NCBI GenBank assembly: GCA_020161265.1
Contig: JAIUOC010000002.1
Location: 310,001-374,000 of the forward strand
From: Chloroflexota bacterium
GTDB lineage: Bacteria; Chloroflexota; Chloroflexia; Chloroflexales; Herpetosiphonaceae
DNA: 64,000 nt
Direction of reading: 5' to 3'
Shown here in pieces: positions 42,508 through 59,689 of this stretch. The notes below the pieces were generated by a model. The model saw nothing but the letters and a program-made list of their open reading frames with translations. It was not told the origin of the DNA and ran no database searches. Positions within the stretch are counted from its first letter, which is position 1; each line of letters starts with the position of its first letter. Position numbers and translations under genes: made by a program.

Positions 42508-42586
42508 TTGACAGGCAGTGATGGGCAACGTATGATTACCGCCGTCTAAACCGACACCCACCACAATCTTAGGAAGGTCAGAAGTG

Positions 42587-44626
42587 ATGTATTTTGTGAG
42601 TCAAACCAAGCGCCGCCTAACAGCTGGTCTGTTTGGCGCTGTTGCGTTGGTGCTTGCCGCCTGTGGCAGTAGCAATCCGCCACTGACGGGAATTGTAACA
42701 GATAGCTATACCCAAAAGCCCGTTGCTGGAGTAACCATTCAAGTTGGCGAAGCAAGCGCTACAAGTGATGCTGATGGTAAATGGACGATTAATGAATGGG
42801 AAAATACCAATTCACTTTTAGTTCAAGCCAGCGATTATAGCTCAGCCACGCTTAGTTTGGCCGATAAAACTCCTGTCGATGAGCAAACTCCGGTAGAAGT
42901 TAATCTGACGATTCGTCCCAACACGATCAGCGGGGTTGTGCTTGATCAATACTCACAACAGCCGGTGGCTGGTGTGACGGTCAAGGCGGGCACGAGCCAA
43001 GCCACCAGTGGTGCTGATGGTCGCTATAAATTGACCGATATTGGCGAAAAAGCCGAAGTGGTGATTGTGGCAACCGATTACACCAGCGCCACCGCTACCC
43101 TCGAAAAACAAACCAGCTACGATGTTTCGCTGCGCCCAACTAGCTTAACTGGAATTATCAGCGATAAATATAGTCAAAAACCAGTCAGTGGAGCCACGGT
43201 CAGCGTTGGCAGCGCCACGGCCCAAAGCGATGCTGAAGGTCGCTATACAGTCAAGAACATCGACTTGAATGCTCCCGTTGTTTTCAGCGCTACCGATTAC
43301 AGTAGCCAAACCTTAGAATTGCCGCAAGCCGCCTCGTTGGATGTAGTCTTGCGACCTTCGACCGTGCGTGGCTCAGTCGTCGATAGTACAACAGGAAAGC
43401 CATTGACCAAGGGCACGGTTATCGCCATGGTTAAGCCATTTGAAGGGGCTGACGAAACCTACCCCTACACTGGCACTGCCGTCACTATGGCACGGCTGAA
43501 TTCCGATGGTACCTATGAATTAACTGATGTGCCCGAAAATGCCCAAATTCAGGTGCTCTCACCTGGTTATCGCAAGGCTTGGACGGCACTCAGCGAAGGC
43601 AAATTTACCGCCGATCTAGAAGCTGAAGAATTTGTAGCCAAGGCAATTTATATTACCGCAGCAACCGGCTCGTCAAAAGCTTCATTAAGCGAATTGTTTG
43701 ATTTGGTTGATCAAACCGAAGTTAACGCGGTGGTGCTCGATATCAAACTGGATATTGCTGGCGCAGTTGGCCAAGTTGGCTATATTTCCAACCATCCCTT
43801 AGTGATTGAAGCTGATACCGCTGTTGATTATTTGGATATGGAATGGATTGTGGCCGAAGCCCGCAAGCGCGATATCTACTTAATTGGCCGTATGGCAGTG
43901 ATGCGCGATAATAGCTTGGCCGATGCTCACCCTGAATGGGCTGCCCAAAGCCGCGAAACTGGCGGTGTATGGGAAGACGATGGCGGGCTGAAGTGGCTTG
44001 ATCCATTCAACCCCAACGTCACCGAGTATAATGTGGGTGTTGCCAAAGAAATTGCCGCTTATGGCTTTGATGAAGTACAATTCGATTATATTCGCTTCCC
44101 ATCGGATGGCAGCACCAGCAATTTGGTTTTCTCCAAGCCGATTGATCCCAAAAATAATCCGGAAGTGATGTACGAAGCAATTGGCAATGTGCTCAAACGC
44201 GCTCATGGCGATATCAATGGTTCAGGCGCATTTTTCTCAATCGACGTGTTCGGTTATGCCACATGGCGGAATATGTGGGAAATTGGCCAAAGCCTTGAAA
44301 TTATGGCCGATCACACCGATTATGTCTGTGCAATGGTCTATCCTTCACACTACGATCGCAATGAGTTGGGCTTCGATAATGCCGATGCCTACCCCTATGA
44401 GATCGTCAAGGATAGTATCGAAAAAGGCCAAAAGCGCATGGAAGGCAAATATGCAGTCCAACGACCATGGCTGCAAGCCTTCACCGCGACATGGCTTGAT
44501 CCAGTAACACCATATGGTCGCACCGAAGTTCGCGCCCAAATGCAAGCAGTTGCCGAAGTCGAAGGCACGTATGGCTGGATTCTCTGGAATGCTGCCAATT
44601 ATTACGACCCCGACTGGCTCGATTAA
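42587..44626 (+). CDS. lipoprotein with carboxypeptidase-regulatory-like repeats and DUF4015 TIM-barrel
   Basis: A 679-aa lipoprotein. The signal peptide ends in LVLAACGSS. Four tandem CarboxypepD_reg-like modules follow (about 35-330), each starting with a variant of TGIVTDSYTQKPVAGVTIQVG. The C-terminal ~320 residues match the DUF4015 glycosidase-like barrel: VVLDIKLDIAG, FDEVQFDYIRFPSDG, YVCAMVYPSHY and GWILWNAANYYD. The Asp and Glu in these blocks are candidate catalytic acids. It likely cuts an extracellular glycan; substrate unknown. Start ATG 42587 or GTG 42584 after AGGAAGG. Confidence 0.85.
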   Translation: MYFVSQTKRRLTAGLFGAVALVLAACGSSNPPLTGIVTDSYTQKPVAGVTIQVGEASATSDADGKWTINEWENTNSLLVQASDYSSATLSLADKTPVDEQTPVEVNLTIRPNTISGVVLDQYSQQPVAGVTVKAGTSQATSGADGRYKLTDIGEKAEVVIVATDYTSATATLEKQTSYDVSLRPTSLTGIISDKYSQKPVSGATVSVGSATAQSDAEGRYTVKNIDLNAPVVFSATDYSSQTLELPQAASLDVVLRPSTVRGSVVDSTTGKPLTKGTVIAMVKPFEGADETYPYTGTAVTMARLNSDGTYELTDVPENAQIQVLSPGYRKAWTALSEGKFTADLEAEEFVAKAIYITAATGSSKASLSELFDLVDQTEVNAVVLDIKLDIAGAVGQVGYISNHPLVIEADTAVDYLDMEWIVAEARKRDIYLIGRMAVMRDNSLADAHPEWAAQSRETGGVWEDDGGLKWLDPFNPNVTEYNVGVAKEIAAYGFDEVQFDYIRFPSDGSTSNLVFSKPIDPKNNPEVMYEAIGNVLKRAHGDINGSGAFFSIDVFGYATWRNMWEIGQSLEIMADHTDYVCAMVYPSHYDRNELGFDNADAYPYEIVKDSIEKGQKRMEGKYAVQRPWLQAFTATWLDPVTPYGRTEVRAQMQAVAEVEGTYGWILWNAANYYDPDWLD

Positions 44627-48058: not shown

Positions 48059-48874
48059 CTACTCTTCGCCCAACACAAAATGGCGAATGCCATAGGCTGC
48101 GCCATCGTCGCTGAGCGTAGGCAACACATGATTAGCCGCAGCTAAAGCGAAGCGATCAGCATTGCCCATAGCCATGCCAAAGCCTGCCCAAGCCAGCATC
48201 GAAGCATCATTCTCGCGATCGCCAATTGCCGCAACTTCGGCTTGGGGAATGCCCAAATGTTCGGCAAGCACGGCCAAACCAACGCCTTTGGAGCTACCAA
48301 TCGCCGCCGCCTCGCCAAAATGATCGTGCGAACGAAAAATCTCCAAGCGACCTTTCCAGCGTTCACCCCATTCTTGCATCGTGCGCTCTAATTCAGTTGG
48401 GTCGGTAATCCAAACCAGCTTGGTAACGGGTTTTTGGCGCACAATCTCAACCAAGTTGGGGGCAATATTCACTGGAATATCAACCAGCGAGAAGCCCAAA
48501 TATTCTTCAACCTCGGGGCTGCGCTCAACAATCCACAGCTCATCATCGATATAGGCCTGAATATACAAGCCCTCAGCTAAGGCCAATTCGACCACTTCGG
48601 CAGCCAAGTCGGCGGGCAAGGGATTATCGTAGAGCACCGTACCATCGGCAGTTTGCACATGTGCGCCTTGGTAGGTAATCAGAGGGGTGGTTATCTGCAA
48701 CATATCGGCAAATGGCTGAGCGGTGCGAATCATGCGGCCAGTGGCAATTGTGACATGCACTCCGGCTGCTTGGGCATCAGCAATCGCGGCTCTGGTAGCG
48801 GCGCTTGGCTCTAAGCGTGAATCAAGCAAGGTACCATCAAGATCAAGCGCCAACAAACGATATTTCGGGGTCAT
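48059..48874 (-). CDS. Cof-type HAD-IIB phosphatase
   Basis: A 271-aa HAD hydrolase. Motif I LLALDLDGTLLDS provides the nucleophile Asp, motif II is TIATGR, and motif III/IV is GLAVLAEHLG...AIGDRENDASMLAWAGFG, with the C2b cap between them. Cof-type enzymes dephosphorylate sugar phosphates, FMN, PLP or similar; the substrate here is unknown. Start 48874 follows GAGGAT. Downstream of a hairpin that may end the VWA operon. Confidence 0.92.
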   Translation of the reverse strand: MTPKYRLLALDLDGTLLDSRLEPSAATRAAIADAQAAGVHVTIATGRMIRTAQPFADMLQITTPLITYQGAHVQTADGTVLYDNPLPADLAAEVVELALAEGLYIQAYIDDELWIVERSPEVEEYLGFSLVDIPVNIAPNLVEIVRQKPVTKLVWITDPTELERTMQEWGERWKGRLEIFRSHDHFGEAAAIGSSKGVGLAVLAEHLGIPQAEVAAIGDRENDASMLAWAGFGMAMGNADRFALAAANHVLPTLSDDGAAYGIRHFVLGEE

Positions 48875-48895
48875 GAACCATCCTCTAAAACGCAA

Positions 48896-48930
48896 CAACG
48901 ACGTGCGATTAGTATACCGCAGCGTCGTTG
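48896..48930 (-). terminator. hairpin after the VWA operon
   Basis: CAACGACG (48896-48903) and CGTCGTTG (48923-48930) are exact complements; on the minus strand GCGTTTTA follows. Confidence 0.5.
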
Positions 48931-48966
48931 AGTCGATATCCTGTAATGCTCGTTAGTATAGCACCA

Positions 48967-49587
48967 TCACTTGGTTTCATCCTTGGGTGGCTCGATCACG
49001 ATCATTGGTTGCAGATTTGGATCAATATACACGATTGGCTGGCCTTGAAATAATTGCTCGGTTTCAACCGGCAACGGTGAACCTGCTCGATCCAAGCGCC
49101 CGCGCAATTTGGCATTCAGCATATAAATCGTCAGCGCAATCATAATCAGATAGCCAATGACCAAAAAGGTATTGATCCATGGATGTAATTCAATACTCAA
49201 AAGAAAGCCCAGCCCCAACAAGCATCCCCAACGGAATAAGCCAATCAAGCCTGCTTGCCAAGCAACACTGCGCACCACAGGCTGCTCATCAAACAGCAAC
49301 AGCAATGGCAGCAAGGCCAGCACAACGGAAACTGTGCCAAGCAAGCTATACAGCAAATCATTCGAATTGATCAACTGATAGCTCGCAATACTAATCAGGC
49401 TTTCTTCCCATGCCCATTCTAAGAACACGGGATACAGTGCGATTAGCATAATTACGGTAACAATTGGCTCGATCAGGCTAATGCCCAATAAATGCTGCAT
49501 GCGCCCAATTGAATTTTTGGCGCGGATCGACCACCAAATTGCCCCCGCCAGCGCCAACCAGATTGCAAGATAGATTCCGATAAACAT
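48967..49587 (-). CDS. polytopic membrane protein of the VWA operon
   Basis: A 206-aa protein with about five hydrophobic segments, then a short cytoplasmic tail of about 45 residues (SPLPVETEQLFQGQPIVYIDPNLQPMIVIEPPKD). No known domain was recognised. It is the last gene of a four-gene minus-strand operon with the two solute-binding-like proteins and a coiled-coil membrane protein; the gap to the preceding gene is 22 bp. Probably the membrane partner of that system. Confidence 0.7.
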   Translation of the reverse strand: MFIGIYLAIWLALAGAIWWSIRAKNSIGRMQHLLGISLIEPIVTVIMLIALYPVFLEWAWEESLISIASYQLINSNDLLYSLLGTVSVVLALLPLLLLFDEQPVVRSVAWQAGLIGLFRWGCLLGLGFLLSIELHPWINTFLVIGYLIMIALTIYMLNAKLRGRLDRAGSPLPVETEQLFQGQPIVYIDPNLQPMIVIEPPKDETK

Positions 49588-49609
49588 TCAATTCTCCCTC
49601 GTTATAAAC

Positions 49610-50359
49610 CTAGGCTACGCCACTTTGCGACATAGCGCCTTCTAAAACATGCTGAAACGCATCCATGTCGGCATTCAAATTGCTCAGTCGTTCAGCAACT
49701 TCTTGCGAGGTTTGAGTGGCACTAGCAGCCTCGGATGCTCGCAAACGCACGGTTTCAGCCAAAACATTATCAAGGTTGGCGGCAATATTTTGCAACTGGG
49801 CCGTAATCCGATCATAGTAGGTTGCCAAGGCTTGGGCATTTTGCTGACGATCAATCAAGGCCGCCCGCGTTTCTTTCAATTGATCAACCGTATAGCTATC
49901 CTTAGTCATGGCGATCCGTTGATCAAGGCTGTCGATTTGGGGTTGCAAGCCATGCGGTTGCGAGGTTTGCAAATATTGCTCGATCAACTGGCCTTTATCC
50001 GCTAAACCATGGGCCTGCTCAAATAATTCATTGGCTTGATCAGCAATTGGCTGGAGCAGGCGTTGTAACGGGCCAGCCGTCACATTGGTTGAGCGCACAA
50101 TCTCGCGGCGCGTGCGATCGATCGCTTCCAGATGCGATTGAAAGGTGCGGCTGGTAATTTTGGCCAATTTTGGAGCTTCTTGCTTTTGCACTAAGATATT
50201 TGGATCATTCGCCAACATCCAGACCATCAGGGCATAGGCGATAATCGCAAGCACAATCAACCATGGATAAATTGTTAGCGCCATAACCACCCCGACTGCC
50301 AAAACAATCAAGGGCAGTGGTTTGGTGGCGGCAACTTGTAAAGGGTGGCGTGAGTTCAT
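49610..50359 (-). CDS. two-helix membrane protein with long coiled coil
   Basis: A 249-aa protein. Residues about 15-50 form a transmembrane hairpin (PLIVLAVGVVMALTIYPWLIVLAIIAYALMVWM), and about 75-245 are heptad-rich helices (SHLEAIDRTRREIVRS, QLKETRAALIDRQQNAQALATYYDRI). The build recalls the toxic-anion-resistance TelA group, whose genes also neighbour VWA/solute-binding proteins, but no diagnostic motif was found. Third gene of the operon, 18 bp after the VWA gene. Confidence 0.65.
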   Translation of the reverse strand: MNSRHPLQVAATKPLPLIVLAVGVVMALTIYPWLIVLAIIAYALMVWMLANDPNILVQKQEAPKLAKITSRTFQSHLEAIDRTRREIVRSTNVTAGPLQRLLQPIADQANELFEQAHGLADKGQLIEQYLQTSQPHGLQPQIDSLDQRIAMTKDSYTVDQLKETRAALIDRQQNAQALATYYDRITAQLQNIAANLDNVLAETVRLRASEAASATQTSQEVAERLSNLNADMDAFQHVLEGAMSQSGVA

Positions 50360-50377
50360 AATGCGCGATCCATTTCT

Positions 50378-52066
50378 CTAGAAAAATGTAGCAATTTCAT
50401 GATAAACCTGACGAATTGTCGCCGGATCGCCAGTATACGATTTCGCTCCGGTTATTTCGGCAATTCGTTGCAAAACCTCTTGATTGGCATCAGAGCCATA
50501 GGCAATCGTGAAAATTTTAATCGATGTGCCAGCTTCATCTTGGCGAATTTGCTCATTCAATTGTTCTAAACTTAATGAGCTAGCCGTATCTTCGCCATCA
50601 GTCAACACCACCAAAGCGCGAATCCGCTGCTCTTCGGTTTGTTGCTGAATATCGGCATAGACTTCGCCAATTGTGCTGTACAAACGAGTTTCGCCATCGG
50701 CCACCAAGCCATCGATGCGAGTATGCAAATCGGCCCGTTTGGGGCCAATCGGCGAGAGATCGGAAAGCTCGGTTGCATTGGTGCTGAAAATCGTCACCTG
50801 CACATTATCTTGATCAGCAAAGATATCGATAAAATCGCCAAGCGCAGTTTTGGCTTCGCGCAAACGGTTTTCTTGGCGCATCGAGCCAGAAGTATCAATA
50901 ATCAAGGCTACATCAACTTGCTTTTTGTGCTGCTGCCACAATTGGGTTATGGCCTGCAAAACGTCTGCCGAAGGCGTTGGCAAGGCAACTTGCAATTGGC
51001 TTGGATCAACGCCATGCGCGGTATCAATCGGCGCTGCTAGGCTAATATCAACATTGGCAGGCCGAAAACCATATTGCATGGCCTTGGCTTGTTGGGGTTG
51101 AGCCAGCAAAAACTCTTGAAATACTTGCGCTGCAGCCCGTTTGTCGGCATTCATGCGCTCGGTTTCTAGCACCACCAAAGGATGGTCACTCCAAAATGAG
51201 CCTTCTTTGGGGTAAATCGCCACCATCGGCAACTCAAGGTTGGGATACAAGGCTTGATCATACGACTCGATGATGAGATTTTCATACAAAATCGCCGCCG
51301 ACAAATACGAAGAGCCATGCTCATACATGGTTTTGGCAAAAAAGCCTGTGCTTGAGCCATAGTGAATGACTGATTGCTCAACAGCATTGATCAAACTGGC
51401 AGTTTCGGGCTTATCCAAATCAGCGACAGTCAGATCGCTGGTTTTTTGATTGGCAGCGTAGGCCATCGCCACAATCGTGGCAAGCCCACTATTGGAGAAC
51501 TCAGGGTGCGTGTGGCCAAACTGAAATGCACCCCACTCAGGATGGCCAAAATCGGCCCAAGTTTTGCCACTAGTCGCCAAATCGGCCAAATCCGCCCAGC
51601 CAATTTGCTTATCGGGGTAGCCCAAGGCTTGAGCCATTGGCTTCCACATGCCAATTACAACTGGGCTAAGCACCAACGAAGCGGGAGTTTGGTCGCTAAA
51701 CAGCAATTCGCCTTTAGCCGTCTTCCAACGTTGATTGGCTAATGGCAAGGATAAACTGCTCGCTGGACTCCATAAATCGGCCTGTTGCGAACCATCAAGC
51801 AAGCCGTTGATCGTTTCGAGCGAACCAACGGGCACTGCTTCGACCTGAATGCGTTGGCCGCTAGCGGTTTTAGCTGAGCTGGCGTTAAAATCGCTCACCA
51901 CCGCATCAATCCAGAGTTGCTTTTCGCTGCCATAGAGCAAGCGCAACACCAGATCATTACTGCTCGTTTGATCTGATTGGCTTGGTTGGGTTGGGTTAGC
52001 TGCCTGACCACAGGCGCTCAAAAGTGTGAAGAGCAACAATAAGCGTAGAGCAAATCGAGAACGCAT
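50378..52066 (-). CDS. lipoprotein with solute-binding-like and VWA domains
   Basis: A 562-aa exported lipoprotein (lipobox LLSACGQ). Residues about 45-360 resemble a type-II periplasmic binding protein: LRLLYGSEKQLWIDAVVSDF, SSLSLPLANQRW, YPKEGSFWSDHPLVVL. The C-terminal 180 residues are a von Willebrand factor A domain with intact MIDAS: DTSGSM (391-396), Thr at about 460 (DGETRLYS) and Asp at about 490 (LTDGED). So it could bind both a small ligand and a protein. Start 52066 follows AAGGAG; the upstream gene ends 17 bp away. Confidence 0.88.
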   Translation of the reverse strand: MRSRFALRLLLLFTLLSACGQAANPTQPSQSDQTSSNDLVLRLLYGSEKQLWIDAVVSDFNASSAKTASGQRIQVEAVPVGSLETINGLLDGSQQADLWSPASSLSLPLANQRWKTAKGELLFSDQTPASLVLSPVVIGMWKPMAQALGYPDKQIGWADLADLATSGKTWADFGHPEWGAFQFGHTHPEFSNSGLATIVAMAYAANQKTSDLTVADLDKPETASLINAVEQSVIHYGSSTGFFAKTMYEHGSSYLSAAILYENLIIESYDQALYPNLELPMVAIYPKEGSFWSDHPLVVLETERMNADKRAAAQVFQEFLLAQPQQAKAMQYGFRPANVDISLAAPIDTAHGVDPSQLQVALPTPSADVLQAITQLWQQHKKQVDVALIIDTSGSMRQENRLREAKTALGDFIDIFADQDNVQVTIFSTNATELSDLSPIGPKRADLHTRIDGLVADGETRLYSTIGEVYADIQQQTEEQRIRALVVLTDGEDTASSLSLEQLNEQIRQDEAGTSIKIFTIAYGSDANQEVLQRIAEITGAKSYTGDPATIRQVYHEIATFF

Positions 52067-52082
52067 TGGCAACACTCCTTGA

Positions 52083-53246
52083 TTAGCGTTTAACACTGGT
52101 CGCTAGCGAGTTCCACAAATCCAGCACTGCCTTGATCGTGGCAGCATCTGGCTCAGCCGCCAAATTTGGAATGCTCATTTGCACTCCAGAACTTTGATAT
52201 TTAACAAAAGGCGAATCGGCGGCATCGATTGCAATATCGGGATCGACTGGGCGAAAGCCTTGTTGGACAGCCGTGGTTTGTTGCGGCTTGGCAAGTAGAA
52301 ATTCGCGCAATGACCCAGCAGCTTCACGTTGATCGTCGCTGCTCCACGAGGCATCCAAAATTGCCAAAGGATGGTCGCTATAGAGATTTTGTGGTGGATA
52401 CACCAAGATTAATTTACCAAAACGGCCTTGGGCTTTGGGCAAATATTCAAGCGCAGTGCTTTCATAGACCACGGCTGCACCATAGCTACTTGGCCCAAAT
52501 TGCACCATTTTCTGCATCAATGAGCCAGTGCTTTCAGCAAATTGCTCAACATTTTTGGCGTAGCCTTGGAGCCATTCCACAAATTGAGGATCATTAACAT
52601 CCCCAGCGGTTAAGCCACTAGCTTTATTATGGTAAGCATAGGCCATCAAAATCCAAGCCTGAAAACCGCTATTTGAAGTGGTCGGGCTAGTTTGGGCAAA
52701 TAGAATTTTTTGACTGCGCTGGGGGATTAAAACCCCATCGTGCAATGCTTGCCAAAGCTGAGGATCTTGCGATTTCAATAAGTTGGCGGCGGGCGAACCT
52801 TCGTAGGCAGCTAGCACCAATGGCGAAATCAACAACGGTTCGGCATCAGCAGCCAAATTGGTTTTACCATCGATTTGGGCGGCATTAATTTGGGTAATTT
52901 GTAAGGTACTGGCGGGGCTGATCGCGGTTGGCCGCAAACGTCCATCCTGCAACTGAGCCACAATCTCTTGCGAACCACGCGAAATTAACTCGACTTGAAT
53001 CGGCTTGCCATCGACAGTCGGATTGGTTGCCAGCCAGGCATTGACCGATTGCTTGAGCCAAGCCTCTTTTTCACTGCTATAGACTAATTGCAACTTAATT
53101 GCCTGGCTTGGGTCGGGCGTGCCAGGCACCCGCGTGGGCAAAATTGCCAAGGGCGCTGATGAAGCCAACCAACCTTGGCTCACCGCAACCACGACTAACG
53201 CACAAATCAGAAAAAAGCCAGCTGCAACCACCCATGCCTTACGCAT
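52083..53246 (-). CDS. solute-binding-like membrane-anchored protein
   Basis: A 387-aa protein with an N-terminal membrane anchor/signal (about 5-28, no lipobox Cys), then a periplasmic-binding-protein-like fold: LQLVYSSEKEAWLKQSVNAWL, SPASTLQITQIN, LILVYPPQNLYSDHPLAIL. It is clearly paralogous to the N-terminal part of the next gene (YGSEK/YSSEK, YP-x-SDHPL, FRP-D) but lacks the VWA domain. First gene of the operon; GGAG precedes ATG. No ABC permease or ATPase is adjacent, so classical transport is doubtful. Confidence 0.82.
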   Translation of the reverse strand: MRKAWVVAAGFFLICALVVVAVSQGWLASSAPLAILPTRVPGTPDPSQAIKLQLVYSSEKEAWLKQSVNAWLATNPTVDGKPIQVELISRGSQEIVAQLQDGRLRPTAISPASTLQITQINAAQIDGKTNLAADAEPLLISPLVLAAYEGSPAANLLKSQDPQLWQALHDGVLIPQRSQKILFAQTSPTTSNSGFQAWILMAYAYHNKASGLTAGDVNDPQFVEWLQGYAKNVEQFAESTGSLMQKMVQFGPSSYGAAVVYESTALEYLPKAQGRFGKLILVYPPQNLYSDHPLAILDASWSSDDQREAAGSLREFLLAKPQQTTAVQQGFRPVDPDIAIDAADSPFVKYQSSGVQMSIPNLAAEPDAATIKAVLDLWNSLATSVKR

Positions 53247-53655
53247 AACAACTCCGTTCTATCCAAAAATCCAGAATGCTAAAATGTTATGGTTTTGTTA
53301 AGCAAAAATAGCATTTCAGCCCATTAGAATGAGCAATTTATCTACGTCACCAGTTTGGTTTGGTTACAGCAAGTCTAGTGCAAGTAGGGGCAAAAAGCTA
53401 GCCCGAAAATAGCGTATACCATGCCTAAGTCCCCATAACAATAGCCAAACCTACGCCGAATTCCAGTGATCGTTGATTTACTAACCCATCTCCATAAGTG
53501 CAACGTTGCTTCATCCCTTATTCTTCATCCTTCATCCTTTTGCTGGCCAATTGGACAGGTCTGGGCCTGTCTCGTTGTGCTAGCTTTTGCCCCACCCTTG
53601 GCTGAGTTGAACTCACGGGCCAATCGCTATACTGCTGGGCAGATGGAGGTTGGCT
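53247..53655. other. 409-bp intergenic region
   Basis: Holds the divergent control region of the VWA operon, a reversed GGATGAA-module copy (about 53514-53539), a small GACAGG/CCTGTC hairpin (53554-53571), and a possible promoter TTGAAC-15-TATACT (53607-53633) for the NTF2-like gene. No coding stretch is convincing. Confidence 0.6.
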
Positions 53656-57779: not shown

Positions 57780-59471
57780 TTAGTTGCAGCCTTCCCACCA
57801 GCAAGGGTTGGCCTCTGCCCAATCAGTCAAGGCTGTCCATTTTGGAGAGCTAGGTTGGGTGACATATTCCAAAGCGCCCCAGTTGCCCCACTTGCTGTAG
57901 GTTCCGGTGAAGTTGAAGGCAACAAATGTATGTCCGCCATTGCTGCGCCAATCATCAAGATGTTGGCGATAGACTGACTCCATACGTGGATCGCGATTGG
58001 CAGCCCCAAATAAGGCGGTAAGCGCATCGTTGTTTTCGGCTCCACCATGGCCAACCAAATGCTGGCCACCTTCATAAGCTACCATTTCAACCCCAAACTC
58101 ATCGGCAACGCTGGCCGAATCGATCATCCATTGGCTTGCCTGTGCCAATGCTCCGCCTGCTGGCCCATTTGCTAAAACACCACCTGTCTGAATTTCGGTG
58201 AAAAGCTGATCGAGTGTCCAGGTTGATACTTTCGTTGCGTTCTTGGGATCGCCTAGATAGCCACCAAAATAGGGCGCTACCGCCAAGGCTTCAATTCCAT
58301 GATCAACACATGGATCACCATCAGTCCAAAGCGGACAGCCTAAGATTTGTTGACTAACCCAGAGATTGCCTGCTTGCGAACCAGCAACACAATGCACTCG
58401 ATTCGCTTGATCGCCCCAAGCAGCCTTCCAGATATCGCACATCTGCGCTGTTCGCATCCCATGCCAGTTCATACCACTTTGGAATGGATCAAGATCAATG
58501 TCATCATCTGGATCATCAAAGAGCGCCAACCCTTGATTTACCGCATACTGGGCTTGAGGAAACATACCGTTCCAGACTTCATTGGAAAACTCAATATAGA
58601 CCTCAATATCGCCATTGAGCAACTGCTTGGCTTTGGCGGCAAAACGCCGCATATAGTCATCGTTGGCGGTATGCGGCAGATTAAACCAAGCATCATTGCC
58701 CAGCCGATTGGTCAGCGCCGCCATAATTTCTAAGGGAACGCCCTTCTTGGTCGTATAGCGAGCGTCGTTGACGACTGGCCGATCAGCCCACGCTACCTGC
58801 GTAGTCTCGTTTGTGCGCATCCAATCCATAAAGCGAATAACCTTGGTTGAACTCAGTCGCTCTAGAAAGCGTGGATCGAAGACTTGGGTTTTATAGCTCG
58901 TTTCGTAGGCAATTGGCACAACATGCATATCACGCAAATAGTTGCCAGTATTGAATGGATCAGTCGCGGTAATTTTGATTTGGACATAGCCATCGTGGCC
59001 AACAGTAATGACATCGCGGCCTGGCGCGGAGCTAACATTGGTTACGCCCAAGGGATATTCGATCGTGCCTTCGCCTTTGTACAACACCACATACTGACCA
59101 CTAAAATCCAGTCGTGGATCACCCAGCATAATCAAAGTTGAGATGCTGGTAAAAATGGGGGCATCGCTGGGTTTGGGCAGTGAACGTACCCAGCCTCGGC
59201 TGTCAAGATCAATCAGCTGATATTCGCCAGTATCCCAACTCTTTTTCTGGGTACAGCCAGCGTCTTGGCCAACCCGACATTGAGGAATCCATTCACGCGA
59301 CGTTTTGAAAAAATCCAACAGCGCCAGATCATCGCTCCAATCCTGCATCGCCTCAAGATTAACTCCTAACGGCGATTGATCGGCGGCTTGGGCAGCGCTG
59401 GGCGGCGGATAAATCACCCCAGTCAGAATAATTAACAATGCCAGATACGCAGCCAACGAATAATAACGCAT
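57780..59471 (-). CDS. secreted glycosidase-like (clan-A type) protein
   Basis: A 563-aa exported protein (signal 1-28, PPPSAAQAA). Central sequence VYIEFSNEVWNGMFPQAQYAVNQG carries a clan-A-like Asn-Glu acid/base, and VEMVAYEGGQHL offers the second Glu nucleophile; FVAFNFTGTYSKWGNWGALEY closes the barrel. Similar proteins are labelled cellulose-binding or GH-like in several phyla. Six or more Cys suggest disulfides. GGAGGA precedes ATG 59471. Single gene. Confidence 0.75.
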   Translation of the reverse strand: MRYYSLAAYLALLIILTGVIYPPPSAAQAADQSPLGVNLEAMQDWSDDLALLDFFKTSREWIPQCRVGQDAGCTQKKSWDTGEYQLIDLDSRGWVRSLPKPSDAPIFTSISTLIMLGDPRLDFSGQYVVLYKGEGTIEYPLGVTNVSSAPGRDVITVGHDGYVQIKITATDPFNTGNYLRDMHVVPIAYETSYKTQVFDPRFLERLSSTKVIRFMDWMRTNETTQVAWADRPVVNDARYTTKKGVPLEIMAALTNRLGNDAWFNLPHTANDDYMRRFAAKAKQLLNGDIEVYIEFSNEVWNGMFPQAQYAVNQGLALFDDPDDDIDLDPFQSGMNWHGMRTAQMCDIWKAAWGDQANRVHCVAGSQAGNLWVSQQILGCPLWTDGDPCVDHGIEALAVAPYFGGYLGDPKNATKVSTWTLDQLFTEIQTGGVLANGPAGGALAQASQWMIDSASVADEFGVEMVAYEGGQHLVGHGGAENNDALTALFGAANRDPRMESVYRQHLDDWRSNGGHTFVAFNFTGTYSKWGNWGALEYVTQPSSPKWTALTDWAEANPCWWEGCN

Positions 59472-59689
59472 CGATTCCTCCAATGGCTAGCCAGCAGTCA
59501 TTGCTGGTAGCAAATAATGTGGGGAGTTTTGGCAACCTCATCCTTCAACAAAGAATTAGATAATTGGATTGCATTGCCGCTACCCCTTAAGATGACATTA
59601 ATAATGACGTTTAAGTTTGGCAATTCTGGACAGGTGACGTTAAAGATTTTTAAAGATTGTTTTAGTAAAAATTGATTGGTGATTAATCC

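Follow-up and report, generated by a model that had tools for sequence, protein, structure and literature searches.

The window (the whole 64,000-nucleotide stretch of Herpetosiphonaceae DNA analyzed here) carries four closely spaced genes on its minus strand, transcribed in the order S, SV, CC, MP. All four ORFs are present at the coordinates below, which also include the S–SV junction and the next gene downstream.

52083 to 53246, minus strand: S, a solute-binding protein of 387 aa from the sulfate-binding lineage (SBP_bac_11), which has an N-terminal signal anchor but no lipobox.
52067 to 52082, minus strand: the S–SV junction, with an AAGGAG ribosome-binding site serving ATG 52066.
50378 to 52066, minus strand: SV, a 562-aa lipoprotein composed of a type II solute-binding domain (residues ~38–383) and a VWA domain (~384–562) with a complete MIDAS.
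49610 to 50359, minus strand: CC, 249 aa, with a two-TM hairpin (~14–50) and a long antiparallel helical coiled-coil domain (71–246).
48967 to 49587, minus strand: MP, a 206-aa polytopic membrane protein.
48059 to 48898, minus strand: a HAD-family hydrolase (Hydrolase_3), 68 bp downstream of MP.

With ATG 52066 as the start of SV, the successive intergenic gaps are 16, 18, and 22 bp. The SV ORF can be extended upstream to GTG 52096, but the sequence makes ATG 52066 the more likely start because AAGGAG precedes it. SV is 98% identical to its counterpart in Herpetosiphon aurantiacus DSM 785, so the window genome is a close relative of that strain. Relative to H. aurantiacus, dN/dS values of 0.07 (S), 0.07 (SV), 0.04 (CC), and 0.23 (MP) indicate purifying selection on all four genes, least strongly on MP. 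A scan of the neighboring genes between 42.6 and 59.5 kb of the window found no ABC domain, in agreement with a sequence-only reading of this DNA, which had reported no ABC permease or ATPase nearby. The HAD hydrolase gene keeps the same position in other genomes of the genus. It probably lies outside the unit, since its own promoter-like palindrome precedes it: positions 48899–48966 hold a short palindrome (CAACGACG..CGTCGTTG) around TATACTAA, operator- or promoter-like in appearance and directly upstream of the hydrolase gene. At the other end (53247–53650), a SnoaL-like gene on the opposite strand lies beyond S, whereas in H. aurantiacus a same-strand MR_MLE enolase-family gene is upstream of S; gene content upstream of S thus differs between the two genomes.

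Both S and SV match Pfam SBP_bac_11 (2e-16 and 1.4e-14, respectively) and SV also matches VWA (8.4e-19), all above the curated cut-offs. SV begins with the lipobox LLSAC, and S with a hydrophobic anchor that lacks one. The AlphaFold2 model of SV is full length and confident (pLDDT 91). In fold searches, its residues ~38–383 resemble type II binding proteins whose ligands are thiamin, sulfate, or ferric iron (Z 25–27), the fold employed by ABC uptake systems, and residues 382–562 form a canonical VWA domain (Z ~24–25). Sequence searches placed sulfate-binding proteins nearest to S. The MIDAS residues of SV (D391, S393, S395, T460, and D490 in the 562-aa numbering; DxSxS ... T ... D) are all present and are conserved in 32 of 32 aligned relatives from several phyla. 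The VWA domain therefore has a complete metal-site motif and is predicted from its sequence to bind a divalent metal. These results uphold the initial description of two exported solute-binding-like proteins, one of them fused to a VWA domain with an intact MIDAS. The cleft residues K49, S82, SNSG 191–194, E262, and R335 are kept in 42–43 of 43 S and SV sequences; their retention in both proteins suggests that S and SV bind the same sort of ligand.

The remaining two genes had been described as a coiled-coil membrane protein followed by a polytopic membrane protein, and this too held. In the CC model (pLDDT 85), an N-terminal two-helix hydrophobic hairpin leads into a long antiparallel helical bundle, and MP is polytopic by hydropathy. 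Neither protein matched a Pfam family. XpaC (PF10112), considered as an identity for CC, was absent among its Pfam matches up to E=1. Sequence comparison gave no support for a PspA/ESCRT-III identity of CC either: Pfam returned nothing, and hhalign against PspA reached a probability of 3%. Fold searches with CC returned only generic helical or BAR-like bundles, with Z values that the tool flags as possibly meaningless; PspA and ESCRT-III entries were not among the fold matches listed, which for so uninformative a helical-bundle search does not exclude that identity. MP is confined to the genus and is weakly similar (hhalign 82%) to two tandem membrane genes that follow S-CC in the sister genus. 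None of the four proteins matched a PADLOC defense model, and we rejected membership of the operon in a defense system on this ground; the AAA+ protein of one relative resembles IetA in PADLOC, a match to AAA only.

A scan of 84,980 species genomes yielded 297 relatives, and our locus counts rest on 80 of these loci. In 73 of 79 testable loci, S and SV are encoded on one strand within 1 kb of each other, and in 50 of 80 CC shares the strand of SV. Gene order is S-SV-CC in Chloroflexota and SV-S-CC in most loci outside that phylum, and a collinear alignment of the CC proteins from the two groups spans 198 columns (hhalign probability 96%, E 2e-9). An independent CC-profile search found CC in 20 of 201 Chloroflexota genomes; 19 of its 21 matches adjoin S or SV, and the two that do not both belong to one genome (G152). 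The four-gene unit is a genus-level arrangement, also found in H. aurantiacus. The deeply conserved unit is S-SV-CC, with MP excluded. Of the four-gene order expected to recur among relatives, the first three genes are conserved, whereas MP is genus-level with weak counterparts in the sister genus. The sequence-only reading would have been undone had the genes separated in every relative or had homologs always stood beside an ABC transporter; the linkage just described speaks against the former, and an ABC-type ATPase occurred in only 2 of 77 gene runs near relatives (L085 and L110), a count that is a lower bound because one profile was used for detection.

Relatives extend to further phyla. 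Among Actinomycetota, Miltoncostaea has SV-CC (CC match 7.5e-24) and the case in Streptomyces is weaker; Deinococcota relatives have S-SV-2TM, and Pseudomonadota plasmids also carry relatives. With the Variovorax SV as query, 297 genomes of a Proteobacterial relative's phylum gave one strong match (L172). VWA proteins on cyanobacterial plasmids have both SV domains, but neither S nor CC was found to accompany them. In Ktedonobacteria, very long solute-binding ORFs (~800 aa) have a signal anchor near residue 408, so in all likelihood they represent S proteins whose N-terminal extension is spurious.

SV has been lost repeatedly. In three other Herpetosiphon genomes, S adjoins CC and SV is gone, leaving as a scar the last SV codons (..QFF-stop). 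The sister genus has a different deletion (L068:6548–6667), which has left a 40-codon mini-gene whose lipoprotein signal runs directly into the SV C-terminus (MLLKGLLPIALIVSLLAACAMYQGDPQTILSVHADIATFF). All SV-deleted genomes retain a paralogous SV elsewhere. Judged from these sequences, the more stable local pairing is that of S with CC, and SV is the replaceable part, not strictly required at the locus. The window genome itself has a second SV, 38% identical (L014:6596–8248), which is without S or CC. It lies directly downstream of a HAMP-PAS-STAS protein and faces a Ser/Thr protein kinase gene, and in another Herpetosiphon (L066) a HAMP-PAS-STAS-sized gene is likewise upstream of this SV paralog.

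The partner genes of the triad vary by lineage. Five loci from Verrucomicrobia, Acidobacteria, and Proteobacteria (L122, L128, L133, L138, and L155) have precisely the arrangement SV-S-PspA-CC-AAA+, with Pfam matches in L128 to PspA_IM30 (7.7e-13) and AAA (2e-22). Two more loci (L132 and L139) have PspA with AAA+ undetected, giving seven PspA-bearing relative loci in all. The window operon contains no PspA_IM30 gene, and the two PspA genes of the window genome are located elsewhere. On plasmids of the Burkholderiales Variovorax and Sphaerotilus, S and SV flank TelA, and the gene after SV encodes a 2TM protein. The VWA/TelA neighborhood that had been attributed to actinobacteria is real, but in Burkholderiales plasmids; the actinobacterial relatives seen here lack TelA. 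Neither the window genome nor 17 genomes with closer relatives contain TelA, so we rejected it as a core partner in the window's branch and regard it as an optional partner of a distant one.

Chloroflexota relatives show other neighbors. A same-strand, multi-TM histidine kinase is encoded downstream of S-SV-CC in five genomes (L059, L073, L074, L075, and L076). All five genomes belong to one Chloroflexota family, the second best represented in the window's own order, and a single-domain response regulator follows the kinase in L073, L074, and L076. Two Chloroflexota loci have a Peripla_BP_6 lipoprotein after CC-like genes, and one of them has a PspA-like coiled-coil gene before S that scores below the Pfam cut-off. 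In another (L077), a binding protein with an OmpA-like stretch lies between CC and SV. Most Chloroflexota loci have no PspA, TelA, or kinase alongside.

The constant linkage of S, SV, and CC, the lack of a transporter, and the exchange of membrane-side partners (PspA with AAA+, TelA, or a kinase) lead us to favor, tentatively and with slightly less than even confidence, the interpretation that S-SV-CC is an envelope-anchored module for ligand sensing or envelope stress and not a transporter. Signal-anchored S and lipoprotein SV would carry matching binding clefts exposed outside the membrane, where both domains may read one ligand. Depending on the ligand, the MIDAS metal of the SV VWA domain would then hold on to S, CC, MP, or cell-wall material as its partner, and CC, whose long helical domain is probably cytoplasmic, would form a complex with these proteins and relay the state of the outer assembly to effectors at the membrane side. 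The putative effector would vary among lineages, being PspA together with an AAA+ ATPase in some and TelA or a histidine kinase and response regulator in others. In Herpetosiphon, MP may be the local partner. Weighing against this interpretation are the uninformative fold matches of CC, the many Chloroflexota loci that have none of PspA, TelA, or a kinase beside them, and the disappearance of SV next to S-CC in several genomes. Sensing or scaffolding, the two roles first suggested for the operon, does fit better than uptake, whereas that first reading had missed both the partners (PspA, AAA+, and two-component proteins) and the recurrent loss of SV.

The main rival to sensing is a structural role in scaffolding or membrane remodeling, which we consider rather unlikely and which may overlap with a sensing module. 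In such a role, S and SV would use the MIDAS to tether the membrane to the wall or to surface polymers, and CC would act with PspA and AAA+ to shape or repair the membrane, with ligand sensing secondary. The PspA and AAA+ neighbors in relatives are consistent with this, as is the BAR-like appearance of the CC model, itself not significant. Ravi et al. 2024 (PMC11237479) describe operons of PspA and a two-domain AAA+ protein with Snf7-TM, ABC, and PBPB-OmpA genes and propose ATP-dependent membrane remodeling for them; VWA goes unmentioned in the text of that paper. The Verrucomicrobia, Acidobacteria, and Proteobacteria modules resemble these operons in having PspA_IM30, a transmembrane helical protein, and AAA+, and the OmpA-fused binding protein of L077 adds a further likeness that would suit remodeling. 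The Herpetosiphon operon, however, has no PspA, AAA+, or ABC genes, and its CC has no sequence match to PspA. A pure scaffold would have no need of the cleft residues conserved in S and SV, and the histidine kinase downstream in one Chloroflexota family also argues against it.

Two further explanations are less likely. S and SV could be orphan binding proteins that scavenge solutes for a transporter encoded elsewhere, which we judge improbable. Their fold and sequence do place them in the sulfate-binding lineage of ABC binding proteins (SubI, 1SBP, CysP/Sbp), with fold matches of Z ~25–27 and weak sequence similarity for both S and the N-terminal half of SV, and the runs of L085 and L110 include an ABC-type ATPase. 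However, 75 of the 77 runs are without a transporter, and the pairing with VWA and CC is constant, with PspA, TelA, or a kinase as partners; here the permease and ATPase are missing, SV is fused to VWA, and S is no lipoprotein but carries a signal anchor. Resistance to toxic oxyanions or cell-envelope agents, as part of a Ter/TelA-type stress system (TelA, PF05816) in which S and SV bind the oxyanion, would suit the sulfate-binding lineage and the S-TelA-SV-2TM operons of the two Burkholderiales, but the missing TelA in the window genome and in the 17 genomes with closer relatives makes it very improbable.

A widespread, transporter-independent extracytoplasmic sensor, in which a solute-binding pair acts through the VWA MIDAS and the two-TM CC on interchangeable effectors (PspA with AAA+, TelA, or a histidine kinase), is conceivable, though on balance doubtful. 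If it exists, solute-binding proteins would have been co-opted extensively for envelope sensing with no transport involved, and one outer-surface input would be common to PspA, TelA, and two-component systems. It would also offer a direct way to ask what the less studied envelope systems of PspA and TelA type sense, be it a ligand or a state, with the S-SV-CC triad as a small, testable gene set.

In the open-licence literature we found no description of the S-SV-CC module, which may have been described elsewhere. SV fits the annotation name 'substrate-binding and VWA domain-containing protein', which its Streptomyces and Variovorax plasmid relatives bear, and no paper on the function or operon of proteins so named was found in that literature. 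Measured against it, S-SV-CC is an undescribed core within a known kind, the envelope-stress and sensing operons, with the PspA/AAA+ operons of PMC11237479 nearest. The candidacy of the locus as an undescribed system thus stands for the triad but not for a conserved four-gene system. The VWA domain also shows sequence similarity to those of calcium-channel alpha2delta and CACHD1, in which a MIDAS domain is likewise joined to an extracellular small-molecule-binding domain (Cache); those proteins are eukaryotic and have a different ligand-binding fold, so the likeness is an analogy only.

Two other genes for envelope or exported proteins were noted in the window. One, at 57780–59483, encodes an exported protein of 567 aa without a Pfam match at E 1e-5. 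The other, at 42584–44626, encodes a lipoprotein that combines a DUF4015 glycosyl-hydrolase-like domain with three CarboxypepD_reg repeats.
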